NCBI GenBank assembly: GCA_024223125.1
Contig: JAAEOP010000306.1
Span: forward strand, 1-19,842
From: Chloroflexota bacterium
Lineage (GTDB): Bacteria; Chloroflexota; Anaerolineae; Promineifilales; Promineifilaceae
DNA: 19,842 nt
Direction of reading: 5' to 3'
Part shown: piece by piece, positions 4,204-19,842 of the stretch
Layout of the letters: each line of letters starts with the position of its first letter
Position numbering within the stretch: position 1 is the stretch's first letter
Notes under the pieces: generated by a model
What the model was told of the DNA's origin: nothing
Seen by the model: the letters and a program-made list of their open reading frames with translations, nothing else
Databases searched by the model: none
Translations under genes and position numbers: made by a program

Positions 4204-5721
4204 ATGTCAGATACACCGTTAGCTGTTGAAATGGAAAATGTTACCGTTCGTTTCCCTGGCGTATTGGCCAATGATCAAGTTAACTTGACATTGAAATCGG
4301 GGGAGATTCACGCCTTGTTGGGGGAGAATGGAGCCGGTAAAAGCACGTTAATGAACGTGTTGGCCGGTCTATATAAACCCACGGAAGGGTCGGTTAAGAT
4401 TCATGGGGAGCCGGTCAGCTTTAATTCGCCTAAAGAGTCCATTGCCGTCGGAATTGGTATGGTTCACCAACATTTTATGCTGGTTCCTACCCAGTCGGTA
4501 ACTGAAAATATTTTGCTGGGATTGAACAAACCCCGCTTCCACCTGAATTTGAAGCAGTATGATGAAGAAATTTTGGCGCTGGAAGAACAGTTTGGCTTGC
4601 AAGTAGACCCAACGGCCAAAATCTGGCAGCTTTCGGTGGGTGAACAGCAGCGGGTAGAAATTTTGAAGACGCTGTACCGGGGGGCCGATATTTTGATTAT
4701 GGATGAACCGACGGCCGTCCTCGCCCCCGCCGAAATTGATGATTTGATGAACACGATGCGTTCTATGGTCGCACAGGGCAAATCTATCATTTTTATCAGC
4801 CATAAACTGCATGAGGTAACGGCCGTCGCTGACCGCATCACTGTTTTACGCAAAGGCAAAGTAACGGCCGAGGGACACAGCATTGAAGGTCTGACCAAAG
4901 ACAAACTGGCCCAATTGATGGTCGGCCGTGATGTTGTCTTTTCTGTCCACCGCAAACCACAAGAAGCAGGCGATGTGGTGTTGGCGGTAGACAATGTTCG
5001 CGCCGAAAATAACAAGGGCGTCACAGCCTTGCGCGACATCTCTTTAGAAGTTCGCAGCGGAGAAATTTTGGGTCTGGCCGGGGTAGCTGGCAATGGGCAA
5101 AGTGAATTGGCAGAGGTGATTACGGGGTTACGGCCGTGTACCGGCTCCATTCAGGTTAACGGCCAGGAAGTGGCCAACCGGCCACCCATCCAAGCCATTC
5201 GCAACGGCGTGTCGCACGTACCCGAAGATCGCACCAAAGTGGGTAGCGCTCCCAACCTGAGCATTACAGAAAACAGTATCATGAAAAGCTATCGTCAGGA
5301 ACCCATCGGTAGCGGTTGGTCTATCAACTACCCACTGGCACAGGAAAATGCCGTTGAATTAAAAGATGCGTATGACATCCTGGCCCCCAATGTAGAGACA
5401 ATGGCACGTAAACTCTCTGGCGGTAATTTGCAAAAGGTAATTCTGGCGCGGGAAATTTCGGCCGAACCACAATTGATGATTGCTGTCCAACCGACACGCG
5501 GTTTGGATGTGGGGGCTATTGAATCTATTCAAACTTTATTGTTGGCGCAGCGGGAAGCGGGCACGGCCGTGTTGCTTGTTTCTGAAGAATTGGAAGAGCT
5601 GTTTGCCCTCAGTGACCGTATCGCCGTTATTTCCGAAGGCAAAATCATGGGCATCATCAGCGCCGACAAAGCCGACATCAACCAAATCGGCATCATGATG
5701 ACCGGTGGTGATGGTTCGTAG
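4204..5721 (+). CDS. double ABC ATPase of the BMP-type nucleoside importer
   Basis: This is the cytoplasmic ATP-hydrolysing subunit, 505 aa, with two fused nucleotide-binding domains as in sugar/nucleoside importers of the RbsA/NupO type. Domain 1 has Walker A GENGAGKST (about residues 40-48), the Q-loop region VHQHFMLVP, signature LSVGEQQR and Walker B ILIMDEPTA. Domain 2 has a degenerate Walker A region (AGVAGNGQSE), an intact signature LSGGNLQK and the Walker B variant LMIAVQPTRGLDVG, where the catalytic Glu is Gln. Asymmetric sites of this kind are usual in this subfamily. ATG 4204 has GAGG at 4193-4196. The last codons and TAG stop lie inside a palindromic repeat (5713-5766), so the C-terminus was probably reset by that insertion. 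Confidence 0.94.
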   Translation: MSDTPLAVEMENVTVRFPGVLANDQVNLTLKSGEIHALLGENGAGKSTLMNVLAGLYKPTEGSVKIHGEPVSFNSPKESIAVGIGMVHQHFMLVPTQSVTENILLGLNKPRFHLNLKQYDEEILALEEQFGLQVDPTAKIWQLSVGEQQRVEILKTLYRGADILIMDEPTAVLAPAEIDDLMNTMRSMVAQGKSIIFISHKLHEVTAVADRITVLRKGKVTAEGHSIEGLTKDKLAQLMVGRDVVFSVHRKPQEAGDVVLAVDNVRAENNKGVTALRDISLEVRSGEILGLAGVAGNGQSELAEVITGLRPCTGSIQVNGQEVANRPPIQAIRNGVSHVPEDRTKVGSAPNLSITENSIMKSYRQEPIGSGWSINYPLAQENAVELKDAYDILAPNVETMARKLSGGNLQKVILAREISAEPQLMIAVQPTRGLDVGAIESIQTLLLAQREAGTAVLLVSEELEELFALSDRIAVISEGKIMGIISADKADINQIGIMMTGGDGS

Positions 5722-15863: not shown

Positions 15864-17555
15864 TTAATAGTTGCGGTATTTGAATTCGCCGTTCACGATT
15901 GTGCCGTCAATTGTAATGTCCAGCAGTTCATCGTGGGGTGTGGTGAAAAGGTCGCGGCTGGTGAGGGTGATGTCGGCCAATTTGCCGGGGACGATGGAGC
16001 CAAGTTGGGCTTGTGTGCCGCCCGTGAGCGCAGCCGCCATCGTAAAAGCGTGAACTGTCTCCTGCATCGTCAATTTTTGGGACGGATACCAGCCGTCTGC
16101 GCCAGGCTCGCCATTGGCGCGGCGACGGGTAACGGCCGCATGAATACCAGGCAACGGGTCAATCTTCTCAATCGGCGCATCGGAACCGAAGACAAGCAAT
16201 GCACCGCTGTCTAACATGGTGCGCCACGCATAGCTGTATTGGGCGCGGTCTCCCCAATGCGCTTCAGCCATTTCCATATCAGACGTGGCGTGGGTGGGCT
16301 GCATGGAGGCGATGACATTGAGTTGTCCCAAACGGTTGAGGTCGTCGGGGTGGAGGATTTGAACGTGTTCGATGCGATGGCGCAATTGCGGATTGCGGAT
16401 TGCGGATTGCGGATTGTGCCGCTGTTCCTGGGCACGGACGGCTTCGTAGACATCTAATACGTCGTGGTTGGCGCGGTCGCCGATGGCGTGGATGGTGACG
16501 CTGAAACCGGCGGCGCTGGCGGCTCTAGCTTTTTCTATCATTTCTTCTTTGTCGGTGACGACGATACCGGTGTTGTTTGGTTCGCCTTCGTAGGGGGATA
16601 GCATGGCGGCCGTGCGCGGCCCCAAAGCGCCGTCGGCAAAAATTTTGATACCGCCAATGCGTAACCAATCATCGCCAAAGCCGGAGCGCAGACCGACGCC
16701 GAGGGCGTGTTCTAGCCGGTAGACAGGCACGTTTTTAAGGAAGCGCAAGCCCAGTTCTCCTTGTTCTTTGAGCATTTGCAGAGCCAGGAAGCAATCACGG
16801 CCGTCAAAATCATGAATACCCGTTAAACCTGCCTGCCAACAAACTTGTTGCGCCGCTTTCATCGCGTCTGCAATTTGGACTGGAGTGGGTTTGGGGATGT
16901 GACGGCCGACAAGGTCAAGCGCATCTTCAAAGAGGATGCCAGTCGGATTACCGTCGGCGTCTCGTTGAATCTGACCGCCGGGTGGGTCGGGCGTGGCAGC
17001 GTCTATACCGGCAATTTTCAGGGCGCGGCTGTTGACCCAGGCGGCGTGGCCTGATTTGTCTGGCAGGTAGGCGGGCATGTGGGGAACGACTTTGTCCAGG
17101 TCGGCGGCTGTGGGGAAGGCGTGGGTGGGCCAGTCGGCGGTACGCCAGCCACGGCCGCGGAGCCAGCCGTTCGTGTTCCGTGTTCCGTGTTCCGTGTTCC
17201 GTGTTCCGTGTTCCGTGTTCCGTGTTCCGTGTTCCGTGTTCCGTGTTCCGTATTCCGCAATTTGTTGTTGGATACGGGAGAGGGCTTCGTCCAGGGATTT
17301 TGTGCCGTCGAGGTTGACTTGTTGCAGGCCGAGGGAGAACCATTGGAAGTGGACGTGGGCGTCTACGAGGCCGGGGATGAGGCCGCGGCCGTGACAATCT
17401 ATCCATTCCCCACCGTTCCCCAATAAGGTTTTCATCTCATCATCATTGCCGACGGCGAGGATACGGTTGTGGCGGATGGCGACGGCCGTAGCGGTGGGTT
17501 GGGCGGGGTTCATGGTGTGGATACGGCCGTTGGTGAGTACAAGTGTGGCAGACAT
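15864..17555 (-). CDS. YtcJ-like metal-dependent amidohydrolase (amidohydrolase_3 family)
   Basis: A 563-aa cytoplasmic metal-dependent hydrolase of the YtcJ/NfdA type. It has an N-terminal beta-sandwich (LVLTNGRIHTM), the metal ligands in GLVDAHVHF (residues 62-70), KIFADGALGPRTAAML (the active-site Lys region), VTIHAIGDRAN, HRIEHVQIL and the catalytic Asp in LVFGSDAPIEKIDPLPGIHAA. The substrate is unknown; the family acts on amides and N-formyl compounds. ATG 17555 follows AGGAG by 8 nt. An upstream in-frame extension is only repeat sequence and is rejected. Two heptanucleotide repeats lie inside the frame: four EHGTRNT-like heptapeptides at residues 101-128, and NPQSAIRNPQ before the HRIEH metal motif. 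Both keep the frame, but function could be affected. Confidence 0.88.
   Translation of the reverse strand: MSATLVLTNGRIHTMNPAQPTATAVAIRHNRILAVGNDDEMKTLLGNGGEWIDCHGRGLIPGLVDAHVHFQWFSLGLQQVNLDGTKSLDEALSRIQQQIAEYGTRNTEHGTRNTEHGTRNTEHGTRNTNGWLRGRGWRTADWPTHAFPTAADLDKVVPHMPAYLPDKSGHAAWVNSRALKIAGIDAATPDPPGGQIQRDADGNPTGILFEDALDLVGRHIPKPTPVQIADAMKAAQQVCWQAGLTGIHDFDGRDCFLALQMLKEQGELGLRFLKNVPVYRLEHALGVGLRSGFGDDWLRIGGIKIFADGALGPRTAAMLSPYEGEPNNTGIVVTDKEEMIEKARAASAAGFSVTIHAIGDRANHDVLDVYEAVRAQEQRHNPQSAIRNPQLRHRIEHVQILHPDDLNRLGQLNVIASMQPTHATSDMEMAEAHWGDRAQYSYAWRTMLDSGALLVFGSDAPIEKIDPLPGIHAAVTRRRANGEPGADGWYPSQKLTMQETVHAFTMAAALTGGTQAQLGSIVPGKLADITLTSRDLFTTPHDELLDITIDGTIVNGEFKYRNY
16386..16413. repeat. 4 x TTGCGGA heptanucleotide tandem repeat inside the amidohydrolase gene
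   Basis: Four perfect 7-bp units TTGCGGA, plus a partial fifth. On the coding strand the unit gives the segment NPQSAIRNPQ shortly before the metal-binding HRIEH motif. The unit sequence differs from that of the repeat at 17173-17256, but the period is the same. Confidence 0.85.
17173..17256. repeat. 12 x GTGTTCC heptanucleotide tandem repeat inside the amidohydrolase gene
   Basis: Eleven perfect units and one variant (GTATTCC), 84 bp. Since 21 nt encodes 7 residues, the coding strand reads EYGTRNT followed by three EHGTRNT heptapeptides in frame. The insertion sits between the helix SLDEALSRIQQQIA and NGWLRGRGW, probably a surface loop. Confidence 0.9.
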
Positions 17556-17591
17556 AAATTTCACTCCTAAATAGGTAATCGGTGTATGGCC

Positions 17592-17720
17592 TGTCATTTT
17601 GACCCCTTCGGCGCTACTCAGGACAGGCTGGAGCGAGAAATCTTTACGCTTATCGGGAAAAAGATTCCTCACCCCCTTCGGTTTTGCTCAGGGCAGGCTC
17701 TCCGGGGATTCGGAATGACA
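17592..17720. repeat. composite interspersed element with two CTTCGG...CTCAGG cores
   Basis: The gap between the amidohydrolase start and the RT gene is filled by TGTCATTTT (17592-17600), core copy CCCCTTCGGCGCTACTCAGG with ACAGGCT (17603-17629), a second core CCCCTTCGGTTTTGCTCAGG with GCAGGCT (17673-17699), and GGAATGACA (17712-17720). The two ends are imperfect inverted repeats. The core also occurs at 2514-2534. No gene is seen here. The rest of the gap (17721-17791) is AT-rich and may hold the RT promoter. Confidence 0.6.
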
Positions 17721-17791
17721 TGAGACCTTATAACATTTGCTAACACGAATGGTATTATAACACGGTTTATTTCAAGATGAGGCCATGACGA

Positions 17792-18841
17792 TTGGTAAAT
17801 AACCTGGGAGATTGGGACAACTTGTTGCTTGCGTATCGCCTTGCCAGTAAAGGGAAACGAGGCAAACCGGATGTGGCCGCGTTTGAGCATCATCTGGAAG
17901 ATAATCTGTGGCAGTTGGCGCAGGAACTGCAACAACAAACATACCGACCCGGTGCGTATCACAGCTTTTTCATTCACGACCCAAAGCGCCGCCTGATTAG
18001 CGCCGCACCGTTTCGGGACCGGGTGGTGCATCATGCGCTGTGTAATTTGATCGAACCGCCGTTTGAGCGCAGCTTTATCGCCGACAGTTACGCCAACCGT
18101 CTGGGCAAAGGGACACACGCGGCGCGTATTCGCTGCCAACAGTTTGCACGCCGCTTTCGTTATGTGTTGCCATGTGATGCCCGTCAATTTTTCCCCAGCG
18201 TAGATCATGCCATTCTGCGGCGCTTGTTGGCGCGCAAGATTGACGACGGGCGGTTGTTGTGGATGATTGAGTTGATTTTGGATGGCGGCAAAGCGGTGTT
18301 GAAAGCGGAATATGAGATGGTGTATTTTCCAGAAGATGATCTTTTTGCTGTGAACCGACCGCGCGGTCTGCCCATTGGCAACCTGACCAGCCAGTTTTGG
18401 GCCAATGTGTACCTGAATCCGTTTGACCATTTTGTGAAACGTCAATTGGGTTGCCAAGGATATGTGCGTTATGTGGATGATTTTTTGTTGTTTGCCGATG
18501 AAAAGGAGACGCTGTGGGCATGGAAAGAGGCGATTGTGACCCGACTGGCAGATTTACGGTTGACCATTCATCCTGGCGCGCAGCCGCGACCAGTGACAGA
18601 AGGGATTCCCTTTTTGGGCTTTCACATTTTTCCAAATCGGGTGCGGTTGAAGCAGCGTAATGGGATGCAGTATCAGCGCAAATTTCGGCAGATGTTGGCC
18701 CAATATGCAGATGGGGAGATTGAGCTAGACGAGGTAACGGCTTCGGTGCGCGGTTGGGTCAATCATGCGCGTTGGGGAAATACGGTGGGGTTGCGGAAGG
18801 GGATTCTGACGGCGAGATTGGTTCAAGCTCCCAAATCTTAG
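17792..18841 (+). CDS. DGR-type reverse transcriptase
   Basis: A reverse transcriptase of a diversity-generating retroelement, 349 aa. It copies the TR transcript with errors at adenines so that cDNA can replace VR. Motifs in order: NLLLAYRLASKGKRG at the N-terminus, RPGAYHSFFIHDPKRRLIS, PFRDRVVHHAL (73-83), LPCDARQFFPSVDH with catalytic Asp129, the DGR-diagnostic GLPIGNLTSQ (192-201, SQ in place of the usual QG), catalytic YVRYVDDFLLF (Asp229/230), and GIPFLGFHIFP with the thumb after it. The start is TTG 17792 with GAGG at 17779-17782; an ATG at 17785 leads to a 5-codon dead end. It is convergent with TR, avd and the target gene, so it must use its own promoter. Confidence 0.95.
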   Translation: MVNNLGDWDNLLLAYRLASKGKRGKPDVAAFEHHLEDNLWQLAQELQQQTYRPGAYHSFFIHDPKRRLISAAPFRDRVVHHALCNLIEPPFERSFIADSYANRLGKGTHAARIRCQQFARRFRYVLPCDARQFFPSVDHAILRRLLARKIDDGRLLWMIELILDGGKAVLKAEYEMVYFPEDDLFAVNRPRGLPIGNLTSQFWANVYLNPFDHFVKRQLGCQGYVRYVDDFLLFADEKETLWAWKEAIVTRLADLRLTIHPGAQPRPVTEGIPFLGFHIFPNRVRLKQRNGMQYQRKFRQMLAQYADGEIELDEVTASVRGWVNHARWGNTVGLRKGILTARLVQAPKS

Positions 18842-18843
18842 AT

Positions 18844-18879
18844 GGCCGCGCCGCAGGGACGAACCGAGGCGACGCGGCC
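18844..18879. terminator. GC-rich stem-loop after the RT gene
   Basis: GGCCGCGCCGC (18844-18854) and GCGACGCGGCC (18869-18879) form an 11-bp stem with a 14-nt loop. On the plus strand one pair is a C-A mismatch and GTTGTTATTT follows. On the minus strand that pair becomes a permitted G-U. It could terminate RT transcription or form the 3' end of the minus-strand TR RNA. Confidence 0.5.
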
Positions 18880-18953
18880 GTTGTTATTTGCCCGGCCCGC
18901 ATGACAGAATCATGACAGGCGCGGCCAGGACAAAACCCCGCCATTTCTCTCGC

Positions 18954-18980
18954 CGCGGCGCGGAAGACGTATCCGCCGCG
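18954..18980. other. GC-rich hairpin immediately downstream of TR (minus strand)
   Basis: CGCGGCGCGGA (18954-18964) pairs with TCCGCCGCG (18972-18980), leaving a 2-nt bulge and a 7-nt loop. In minus-strand RNA it lies about 24 nt after the end of TR homology. It may be part of the structured TR RNA that supports cDNA priming, or an ordinary terminator stem without a T-tract. Confidence 0.45.
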
Positions 18981-19003
18981 CATTTCTGGCCGGGACACCC
19001 GTT

Positions 19004-19095
19004 TGAGAAGTGTGGACACCACCACCCGCACACCGTTGTTGTCGTTGAAGTTGTTGTGCGGATTGTTCCTGTTGCGCGCGGAACACCGGTGTCTG
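19004..19095 (-). repeat. DGR template repeat (TR)
   Basis: This region is homologous to 19713-19804. Read on the minus strand, it is rich in AAC/AAT codons in the frame that matches VR: CSARNRNNPHNNFNDNNGV and then RVVVST. Over 19004-19092, 15 of 24 adenines (minus strand) differ in VR, against 2 of 65 other bases. A 17-bp block (19014-19030) is identical in both repeats. TR lies between avd and the RT gene, 24 nt downstream of a long stem-loop. It is not itself a protein gene; it serves as the RNA template for mutagenic cDNA synthesis. Confidence 0.93.
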
Positions 19096-19119
19096 GGTTT
19101 TGCCCCACTGCCAATAAGC

Positions 19120-19158
19120 AGTTGTCAAACATCAAACCGAACTTAATGCCTGACAACT
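19120..19158 (-). ncRNA. stem-loop in the TR RNA leader, between avd and TR
   Basis: Arms 19146-19158 and 19120-19132 enclose a 13-nt loop. As minus-strand RNA, AGUUGUCAGGCAU pairs with AUGUUUGACAACU over 13 consecutive positions, two of them G-U. On the plus strand those two positions would be A-C mismatches, so the fold favours minus-strand RNA, the same orientation as TR. It starts 17 nt after the avd stop codon. A structured RNA segment upstream of TR is plausible, but no named family is recognised. Confidence 0.6.
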
Positions 19159-19175
19159 GTGTACCGGCTTCTGAA

Positions 19176-19520
19176 CTAGCGCACTGTTTTTAGCCAGCCA
19201 CCCAACAAGCGCCCAATTTCGCTGACCATACCGGCGGCGTGGCGGTATTGACCGGGCGATATCCATTGCCAGCGTTCGGCTAGACGGAGGTAGAGCCGCA
19301 CTCTGGCTAACGCTTCGTCGGCTTCGTTTAGTTTGGCGCGACGGGCGCTGCCACGCCGCAGATTAGCTTCTTCCAGTCGTTCGCGCAAGTCGAAGGCGGC
19401 GTTTAGCAGGCGTTGGGTGGCGGTGTGCCGGTGGGCGCGGGGAAAGTTGTTGCTGAGAGGCAGCAGCCAGGTAAGCAGATCAAAGGTTTTGCTGAAAATG
19501 GGCATTTCTTGTCGGGTCAT
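19176..19520 (-). CDS. avd: DGR accessory protein Avd (four-helix bundle)
   Basis: Avd forms a pentameric basic four-helix bundle that binds the RT and the TR RNA in studied DGRs. The product is 114 aa from ATG 19520, with GGAG 6 nt upstream; ATG 19523 (3-nt spacing) and TTG 19550 are less likely. Characteristic blocks are IFSKTFDLLTWLLPLSNNFPR with AHRHTATQRLLNAAFDL (helices 1-2), ADEALARVRLYLRLAERW (helix 3) and the C-terminal ISPGQYRHAAGMVSEIGRLL with GGWLKTVR (helix 4). Arg/Lys-rich surfaces suit RNA binding. It is co-directional with the target gene and TR and probably transcribed with TR. Confidence 0.9.
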   Translation of the reverse strand: MTRQEMPIFSKTFDLLTWLLPLSNNFPRAHRHTATQRLLNAAFDLRERLEEANLRRGSARRAKLNEADEALARVRLYLRLAERWQWISPGQYRHAAGMVSEIGRLLGGWLKTVR

Positions 19521-19540
19521 CATCGTCTCCGGATTGATTA

Positions 19541-19572
19541 GAGTTGCCAACTTTCTAAAAAGTTGGCAACTC
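19541..19572. other. perfect 14-bp hairpin upstream of avd
   Basis: GAGTTGCCAACTTT (19541-19554), loop CTAA and AAAGTTGGCAACTC (19559-19572). No T-tract follows on either strand within the expected distance, although AT-rich sequence lies at 19578-19592. It sits 11-12 nt upstream of the avd Shine-Dalgarno, so it may affect avd translation or act as a DNA cruciform. Confidence 0.65.
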
Positions 19573-19598
19573 TTGACTAACCAAAAAATTTTGCGATC

Positions 19599-19633
19599 CG
19601 CGCCTGCGGCGCGTTGGGGGAGGTGTCCCCCAA
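19599..19633. other. two adjacent GC-rich hairpins between target gene and avd
   Basis: CGCGCC-TGC-GGCGCG (19599-19613) directly abuts TTGGGGGA-GGTG-TCCCCCAA (19614-19633, 8-bp stem with 4-nt loop). In the minus direction they precede an A/T-rich run (19581-19592), so a terminator role for the target gene is possible. An 8-bp stem with a 4-nt loop also resembles the cruciform that stimulates retrohoming downstream of VR in the Bordetella phage DGR, though the distance here is greater. Confidence 0.5.
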
Positions 19634-19652
19634 ACCCCCTCAGAGGGCAGAG

Positions 19653-19669
19653 AGGTTGCTTTGCAACCT
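19653..19669. other. 7-bp hairpin 44 nt downstream of VR
   Basis: AGGTTGC-TTT-GCAACCT. On the minus strand it lies 30 nt after the target-gene stop codon and 44 nt after the end of VR homology. It may be a terminator stem or a retrohoming-enhancing cruciform. The gap between it and the stop contains TTCAGAG-type heptamers (19674-19697). Confidence 0.5.
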
Positions 19670-19698
19670 TTAGATCAGAGATTCAGAGTTCAGAGCGT

Positions 19699-19842
19699 TC
19701 AGCGGCCAGCGGTGAGAAATGGGGACACCACCACCCGCATACCGTAGGCGTCGTAGAAGATGGCGTGCGGAGAGTCCCAGTAGCGCGCGGAACACCGGGG
19801 GGAGTCATTCCAGTATGCGCCACCGCGTAAAACAATATCAGC
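19699..19842 (-). CDS. DGR target protein, C-terminal 47 residues (formylglycine-generating-enzyme / C-type-lectin-like fold), partial
   Basis: The gene enters from the right edge; only the C-terminus is visible. It reads ADIVLRGGAYWNDSPRCSAR, then YWDSPHAIFYDAYGM and RVVVSPFLTAGR, and stops with TGA at 19701-19699. The pattern RGGxxW...RCSAR...GxRVV is the end of the FGE-sulfatase/SUMF1 domain, the C-type-lectin-like scaffold used by many DGR variable proteins. The nine residues that differ from the TR-encoded sequence (N/R to Y, W, D, S, A, I, Y, A, Y) would form the ligand-binding surface. Cellular location and ligand cannot be judged without the N-terminus. Confidence 0.9.
   Translation of the reverse strand, partial: ADIVLRGGAYWNDSPRCSARYWDSPHAIFYDAYGMRVVVSPFLTAGR
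19713..19804 (-). repeat. DGR variable repeat (VR)
   Basis: It is homologous to TR at a constant offset of 709 nt and lies at the 3' end of the target gene, ending 11 nt before the stop codon. The differences from TR concentrate at TR adenines. The identical block 19723-19739 at its 3' end (minus strand) corresponds in position to the initiation-of-mutagenic-homology site. Next to that block the repeats differ slightly (19719, 19722, 19740), as IMH and IMH* do in other DGRs. Confidence 0.93.

Follow-up and report, generated by a model that had tools for sequence, protein, structure and literature searches.

An inverted diversity-generating retroelement in a Chloroflexota contig, with a predicted structured template RNA and a phased repeat after the variable repeat

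Introduction

Diversity-generating retroelements (DGRs) have been described in several arrangements, of which BPP-1, with the order mtd-avd-TR-brt, offers one close comparison for the locus considered here: positions 17792–19842 of contig JAAEOP010000306.1 (assembly GCA_024223125.1, Chloroflexota), a 19,842-nt stretch hereafter called the window, where the assignment to a DGR is firm. In BPP-1 all parts lie on one strand, and the template repeat (TR) is followed by a region, Sp, which according to the available portions of PMC12875486 is folded, recruits bRT-Avd and primes cDNA synthesis; the principle of a folded Sp is therefore already known. A GC-rich hairpin with a GRNA loop has been described 4–34 bp after the variable repeat (VR) (PMC3240598). 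Inverted DGRs are likewise in print: in DiGReF Group 4 (PMC3521204) the reverse transcriptase (RT) gene occupies one strand and TR, VR and target the other, and the RT is also inverted in cassette G5 (PMC6642488). NACHT/STAND-CLec targets are known from multicellular bacteria, with filamentous chloroflexi among the hosts (PMC10907252, clade 5D), the same source describes RT loss in DGRs, and RT-less partial DGRs were described earlier in Nanoarchaeota (PMC4372165); all of these statements reach as far as the accessible portions of the sources.

The window cassette resembles BPP-1 in its homologous RT, its Avd, a TR followed by Sp, and adenine-specific change in the VR. It differs in that its RT gene is inverted, its Sp measures 162 nt as against 144 nt (by record coordinates), its TR is shorter (86 versus 134 nt), its target is probably FGE-like, and a phased repeat lies between the VR and a hairpin that in BPP-1 follows the VR at once, with no such repeat. 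With Group 4 and G5 it shares the inverted RT, and the NACHT plus FGE targets of its relatives are like those of clade 5D; the accessible portions of PMC10907252 contain no mention of an inverted RT, of covariation in Sp or of a phased repeat after the VR. The cassette is a further example of an inverted DGR, with a clade of its own, and we regard it as very probable that the whole is an inverted cellular DGR in which a folded TR-Sp RNA serves to diversify a NACHT-FGE target.

The Cassette and Its Parts

The coding parts and repeats, with the evidence for each, are these:

17792..18841, plus strand: DGR reverse transcriptase, 349 aa with TTG as start codon, on the opposite strand from the other cassette parts (open reading frame; BPP-1 bRT match; RVT_1)
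19004..19089, minus strand: TR, with an adenine-rich core at 19033-19076 (repeat comparison)
19176..19550, minus strand: Avd, 124 aa from a TTG start, with an ATG start at 19523 also possible (Pfam and NCBIfam)
19699..19842, minus strand: 3′ end of the target gene, a CLec/FGE-like tail of 47 aa and the stop codon, truncated at the window edge (match to relatives' targets)
19713..19798, minus strand: VR (repeat comparison)

The initial annotation, made from the sequence alone, had proposed a DGR with all core parts within about 2 kb, and that assignment stands, since the RT is nearest to BPP-1 bRT, the Avd exceeds a curated cut-off and the TR/VR change is adenine-specific. What it overlooked is that TR, Avd, VR and target lie on the minus strand and the RT on the plus strand. 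The RT open reading frame (ORF) carries, where it had been placed, the motifs LPIGNLTSQ and YVDD, which we take to be diagnostic of DGR-class RTs. Its best match among solved structures is BPP-1 bRT (8ub7_A, E 1.9e-46) and its second best a group II intron RT (E 1.5e-17), so that the grouping with retrons or group II introns that had been named as grounds for refutation was not seen in this sequence comparison. The suggested profile search gave 54.8 bits to Pfam RVT_1 and no NCBIfam model above its own cut-off. A retron, group II intron or defence RT was rejected on the bRT match and on retron, DRT and group II models that stayed far below their cut-offs; PADLOC listed 58 RT-type families for the window RT, as expected for an RT. 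The profile check bore out the predicted Avd (NCBIfam DivGenRetAVD, 92.5 bits with a cut-off of 80; Pfam bAvd, 71 bits with a cut-off of 40). TR and VR, likewise present as predicted, are 83% identical across 86 nt; adenines make up 22 of the 86 TR positions and take 13 of the 15 mismatches (hypergeometric P 5e-8, uncorrected for the search that yielded the pair). The VR ends 11 nt before the target stop codon.

A phage origin was rejected, phage RTs being at most 37% identical among the 15 rows listed out of 163 matches, and the cassette was treated as cellular. Judged by its nearest relatives, it is probably a cell-encoded DGR of an Anaerolineae-like Chloroflexota bacterium. The other ORFs of the window are presumably housekeeping genes by reading, no family search having been made on them; one of them, amidohydrolase-like (15864-17672, minus strand), contains at 17180-17255 a tandem TTCCGTG-type repeat that encodes repeated NTEHGTR and is likely slippage-prone.

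The Inverted Clade and Its Targets

One scan of genome contigs gave seven relatives. Four of these (L001-L004) have RTs 73–77% identical to the window RT, the same gene order and the same opposed strands, and their TR/VR mismatches fall on TR adenines in 15/16, 14/15, 6/6 and 11/12 cases; RT matches at E 1e-80 or better occur in 22 of the 56 genomes of the relatives' order. RT trees with 41 and with 54 rows, whose midpoint root serves only for drawing, both unite the five inverted cassettes in a single clade (support 99/94 and 100/92), which nests within a set of cassettes that have RT and TR on the same strand. Given this nesting, the RT alone seems to have been inverted, leaving the TR-Sp RNA whole.

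RT and TR lie on opposite strands in six of the 44 loci that have both, namely the five of the clade and L169 (3472-7227 in G730), where the RT is on the plus strand, Avd, TR and VR are on the minus strand and the VR lies between hairpin and RT. L169 falls outside the window's RT clade, which makes a second, separate inversion likely. No opposed RT was seen among 49 non-redundant viral VRs. The Group 4 trio, in the accessible portions of its source, comes from Shewanella, Vibrio and Photobacterium and falls into a single RT group, whereas the window clade sits among Chloroflexota same-strand relatives; the inversion is therefore probably separate from that of Group 4, whose RTs are not in the tree. 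In another RT clade (L055, L056, L061 and L062) it is the Avd gene, not the RT, that is reversed relative to TR and VR. At L059, sister of the inverted clade, a partial minus-strand RT match (G040:C96, 17770-18638) faces a plus-strand FGE target with a phased repeat; neither TR nor Avd was found at that locus.

The targets of the four closest relatives measure about 920–985 aa, stop to stop, with that of L004 truncated by a contig end, and NACHT and FGE domains were found in all five targets scanned (L001, L003, L004, L044 and L045). The C-terminal tail in the window is placed as the initial annotation had it and resembles the ends of the longer FGE targets in L001-L004; the FGE/C-lectin-like character claimed for it thus draws on relatives, the 46 residues searched having reached no Pfam or NCBIfam family. 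By this likeness the window target is probably a NACHT-FGE protein.

A Structured Template RNA

The region that follows the TR aligns across the five inverted loci and six same-strand loci, and the following features, all on the minus strand, can be placed in it:

18842..19003, minus strand: Sp part of the putative template RNA, 162 nt, from the TR 3′ end to the RT stop codon (alignment across inverted and same-strand relatives)
18844..18879, minus strand: helix P3, an 11-bp stem plus 2 inner bp, its loop GGTTCGTCC conserved, with a two-base gap to the RT stop codon (covariation)
18880..18889, minus strand: conserved leader AAATAACAAC preceding P3 (alignment)
18891..18929, minus strand: helix P2, arms CCTGGC / GCCGGG, variable loop, weakly supported (covariation, arms by eye)
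18958..18981, minus strand: helix P1, 6 bp (covariation, arms by eye)

In P3, changes on both sides occur in ten of the 11 stem pairs, and with the inner helix 97.7% of cells are paired, a value that none of 500 shuffles equalled. P1, whose arms were set by eye, shows double changes in 6/6 pairs, with 98.9% paired over 15 sequences and 0/1000 shuffles. Both helices covary across flipped and ordinary loci alike, and the approximately 160 nt after the TR are, on this alignment, predicted to be a conserved structured RNA. Against Rfam, no match above threshold was obtained for Sp, the one sub-threshold hit being CcsR1 at 17.1 bits versus 65.3, and the exact P3 pattern had no match in viral contigs, a further point against a phage origin. 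That P3 serves mainly to terminate RT transcription was rejected, because a terminator scan was empty and the leader is also kept in same-strand relatives.

A search model of P3, R1, was built from ten rows and run on genomes with stricter filters that lose weak matches. There were 19 hits in 13 of the 56 genomes from the order, 28 hits (19 new) in 24 of 396 from the class and, in a phylum sample of 400, a match in a single genome, G001. Of the 38 distinct hits, 25 share a locus with an RT (contig ends truncate three of these RTs), two belong to TR/VR pairs whose RT survives only as remnants (L099 and L171), four belong to TR/VR pairs with neither RT nor Avd (L100-L103), and seven are remnants or unclassed sites (L104; L105, which has RT pieces and no TR; L157, L158, L163, L167 and L168). 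Outside the ten hits that built the model, 21 of 28 adjoin a non-fragment RT or a TR/VR pair. At L158 (about 4600-4890 in G661), inspection by eye suggests a VR-like target end that passes directly into an Sp bearing P1 and P3; TR is missing, and the arrangement looks as if VR-TR recombination had deleted the intervening segment.

TR-VR Modules without a Reverse Transcriptase

The four modules L100-L103, from genomes G009, G022, G032 and G004, have 16/17, 10/11, 13/13 and 12/13 of their mismatches at TR adenines (P 2e-7 to 2e-13). In all four the gap from VR to TR is 145–174 nt, and a TATAAT or TACAAT box stands 29 nt ahead of a common GGGACGGCCG box (counted by eye in L103). At sites other than adenine each VR agrees with its own TR at 66/67, 63/64, 64/64 and 65/66 positions, better than with the other three TRs, which suggests that homing continued after these TRs had diverged. 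Within the 4.7–12 kb around each module, no RT or Avd remnant was found by hidden Markov model searches of ORFs of at least 40 aa, by RT tblastn or by Avd tblastn with seven queries, save an AbiP2-type RT by L102; L101 and L103 lie close to contig ends, about 470 and 690 nt past the hairpin. The L100 and L102 targets combine SAP and FGE, and that of L103 has 806 aa and is, we presume, CHAT-like.

The AbiP2-type defence RT (L102 8080-9603, G032; PADLOC, 630 bits) is the immediate upstream neighbour of the RT-less DGR target. It is not supported as the enzyme of the module: a look by eye through the ORFs of L100, L101 and L103 turned up no such RT, and G009 lacks an RVT_1 hit. Elsewhere in these genomes, further DGR RTs occur in G004 and G022. 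In G009 a DGR-RT remnant is present and RVT_1 gives no hit at 1e-5; the DGR-RT remnants of G032 are degraded, and the AbiP2-type RT is among that genome's three RVT_1 hits. It is plausible that such modules are served in trans. Orphaning also happens: L171 (5893-7033 on the 4.67-Mb contig G643:C1) has Avd, TR, VR, hairpin and only RT remnants, with 22/22 mismatches at adenines and no RVT_1 hit at 1e-5 in its genome, and reads as a recently orphaned DGR.

A Phased Repeat after the VR

Directly 3′ of the VR the window has a short phased array, followed by an inverted repeat:

19673..19711, minus strand: phased CTGR/CTCTGA repeat, five units by eye, directly 3′ of the VR and overlapping the target stop codon (sequence CGCTGGCCGCTGAACGCTCTGAACTCTGAATCTCTGATC)
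19654..19668, minus strand: inverted repeat GGTTGC-AAA-GCAACC after the phased array, its loop differing from the GRNA loop of phage DGRs (for the 81-nt stretch the fold z-score is -0.65)

The inverted repeat starts 44 nt past the VR, and a further 8-bp inverted repeat with the loop CACC follows at about 79 nt; a BPP-1-type target site, with a GC-rich, GRNA-loop hairpin 4–34 bp after the VR, was not found in the window. A perfect 15-bp inverted repeat with a 4-nt loop lies between target stop and Avd (19540-19573), and the L001 cassette has a different palindrome at four places in and around it, one of them inside its Sp.

The array is not peculiar to the window. In the 505,784 bases of 50 loci, chosen for having VRs, runs of at least four YTCTGR units number 26, of which 25 lie just 3′ of a listed VR and the remaining one (L042) ends a previously unlisted FGE ORF. 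A chain test with the tokens CTG, CTTT or CTCT at steps of 6–11 nt, the tokens having been picked after most flanks had been viewed, found chains of at least four in 57 of 73 VR flanks; none of the 51 TR flanks had one, and shuffles gave them at a rate of about 1.7%. In the VR flanks self-identity is highest at a lag of 7 in Chloroflexota (0.437) and of 8 in cyanobacteria (0.553); after the TR it stays flat. A held-out set was drawn from the best 80 of 594 viral-contig loci, 12 of them without a TR/VR pair, from which near-duplicates and flanks under 50 nt were removed to leave 49 VRs; at least four units occurred in 27 of these (0.08% of shuffles), and none of the 49 viral TR flanks had even three. 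This count is lowered by a few flanks that begin inside the VR (e.g., L197, L208 and L240). The unit is CTCTGA in Chloroflexota, AATCTG in viral contigs and CCCTTTA in cyanobacteria, at a step of 7–8 nt, and the viral form, by eye, is often four AATCTG-like units and then a GRNA-loop hairpin. Against generality, 12 of the 73 flanks have at most two units, among them BPP-1, ANMV-1, YPCBV-1, Prosthecochloris, Ideonella, one of the two of L053, and L055, L056, L061 and L062.

Over 56 genomes (about 299 Mb), the pattern CTCTGRN{1,3}CTCTGRN{1,3}CTCTGR gave 55 overlapping matches in 18 genomes, which reduce to 32 distinct sites. At 25 of the 32 (18 of 21 and 7 of 11 in two subsets) the repeat marks the end of an ORF that matches an FGE model built from this study's own targets; two of these ORFs score low (42.7 and 23.9 bits). 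Twelve of the sites had already served as VR sites; among the remaining 20, an FGE ORF ends at 13 and at seven it does not (L276, L277, L290 and L307-L310, four being one string in G055). The reversed pattern, as a control, is absent from 44 of the 56 genomes and from 11 of the 18 with matches, and it is abundant in several (e.g., G047, 79 and 54); since its total exceeds that of the pattern, adjacency to ORFs rather than counts carries the argument.

Our tentative proposal, to which we give somewhat less than an even chance, is that the array of about four to seven short units, directly 3′ of the VR and absent after the TR, is an undescribed and widespread cis signal that marks the recipient DNA between the VR and the known hairpin and, together with a movable folded TR-Sp RNA, would let RT genes flip, move or be absent while modules are diversified in trans. 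The accessible portions of PMC3240598, PMC7517822, PMC10907252, PMC8144416, PMC6199706, PMC3521204 and PMC5006420 hold no mention of the repeat; the subscription literature lay mostly outside the search, so it may already be in print. Pairing of the repeat with the Sp RNA, given only a look by eye, was not seen in cyanobacteria and was dropped. Avd is a pentamer, and that it reads the repeat units is speculation, against which the variable unit number weighs (24 of 49 viral flanks have a chain of four, and BPP-1 has none).

Mechanism and Competing Explanations

We infer that the cassette is transcribed and active in the following way. Transcription of the target-Avd-TR-Sp strand would yield a template RNA consisting of TR and folded Sp, which the RT, expressed from its own convergent gene, would join together with Avd. 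The TR would be copied with errors at adenines, and the cDNA would overwrite the VR at the 3′ end of a NACHT-FGE target that is likely a defence sensor with a diversified tip. An inversion that moved the RT and left TR-Sp unbroken fits the prediction of a model in which the template is a separate RNA. Several results weigh against this account. As a single sequence the window Sp folds no better than shuffles (z -1.07), so that the claim of structure rests on covariation, and P2 is weak, with double changes in two of six pairs and 88% paired over 18 sequences, arms set by eye, failing in L001. Two of the 15 TR/VR mismatches lie outside TR adenines, the window's own target amounts to only 47 aa, and a promoter-like site upstream of the RT (17730-17758, 9/12 letters) is little above chance, with four such sites in the region versus 1.5 expected. 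A different worry is that the inversion separated the RT from its operon and the cassette is decaying and no longer active, as might be said of L099, which has the flipped layout with only an RT fragment, and of L171, with its RT remnants in a genome that gave no RVT_1 hit at 1e-5; decay of DGR RTs through transposons and miniature inverted-repeat transposable elements is described in the accessible portions of PMC10907252. The window RT, however, is full length with intact motifs, TR/VR differences are mostly at adenines in each of L001-L004, and the RT has stayed open in these four despite their divergence from the window, which suggests lasting purifying selection, so that we consider decay highly improbable.

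For the modules that lack an RT the balance is much closer. That they are fossils left by the loss of an RT in cis, and not targets served in trans, has in our estimate very nearly an even chance: G009 and G032 show DGR-RT remnants only and no Avd above cut-off, L171 is a clear recent orphan, and PMC4372165, in its accessible portions, kept fossil and remote diversification both possible for the nanoarchaeal partial DGRs. It accords poorly with loci where the sole RT tblastn hit, at L102, is the separate AbiP2-type RT, where spacing and the promoter-like arrangement with GGGACGGCCG are uniform, and where each VR tracks its own TR. As to the repeat, it could be a mere run of fail-safe stop codons in all frames, its units being of CTGA/TAA type; frames with stops number 2.19 versus 0.95 in shuffles for 21 hand-picked Chloroflexota flanks and 2.16 versus 1.66 for the 49 viral flanks, with 0/200 shuffles reaching either value. 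The ten cyanobacterial flanks, of CCCTTTA type, nevertheless keep the phase of about 8 nt seen at lag 8 with stop frames of 1.00 versus 0.73, a value reached by 30 of 200 shuffles; their stops per 45 nt are 1.40 versus 0.83 (3/200 shuffles reach). Tandem stops may thus account for part of the pattern, and poorly for its cyanobacterial form, and as a full explanation we find them unlikely. A recipient mark remains our tentative reading of the array.

Implications

The inverted clade adds evidence that the RT need not share a transcript with the template RNA, a point already present in the accessible portions of PMC3521204. Surveys that begin from the RT gene, as that source does, would miss RT-less modules, for which the Sp RNA model and the phased repeat are handles independent of the RT; the repeat alone located FGE target genes in whole genomes, at 25 of 32 sites and at 13 of the 20 outside known VRs. 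For the question of how VR is told from TR outside BPP-1, the phased repeat, which follows VR and not TR in Chloroflexota, cyanobacteria and viral contigs, offers an immediate target for mutation. What gives the locus wider value is the template RNA, together with the RT-less modules and the repeat.

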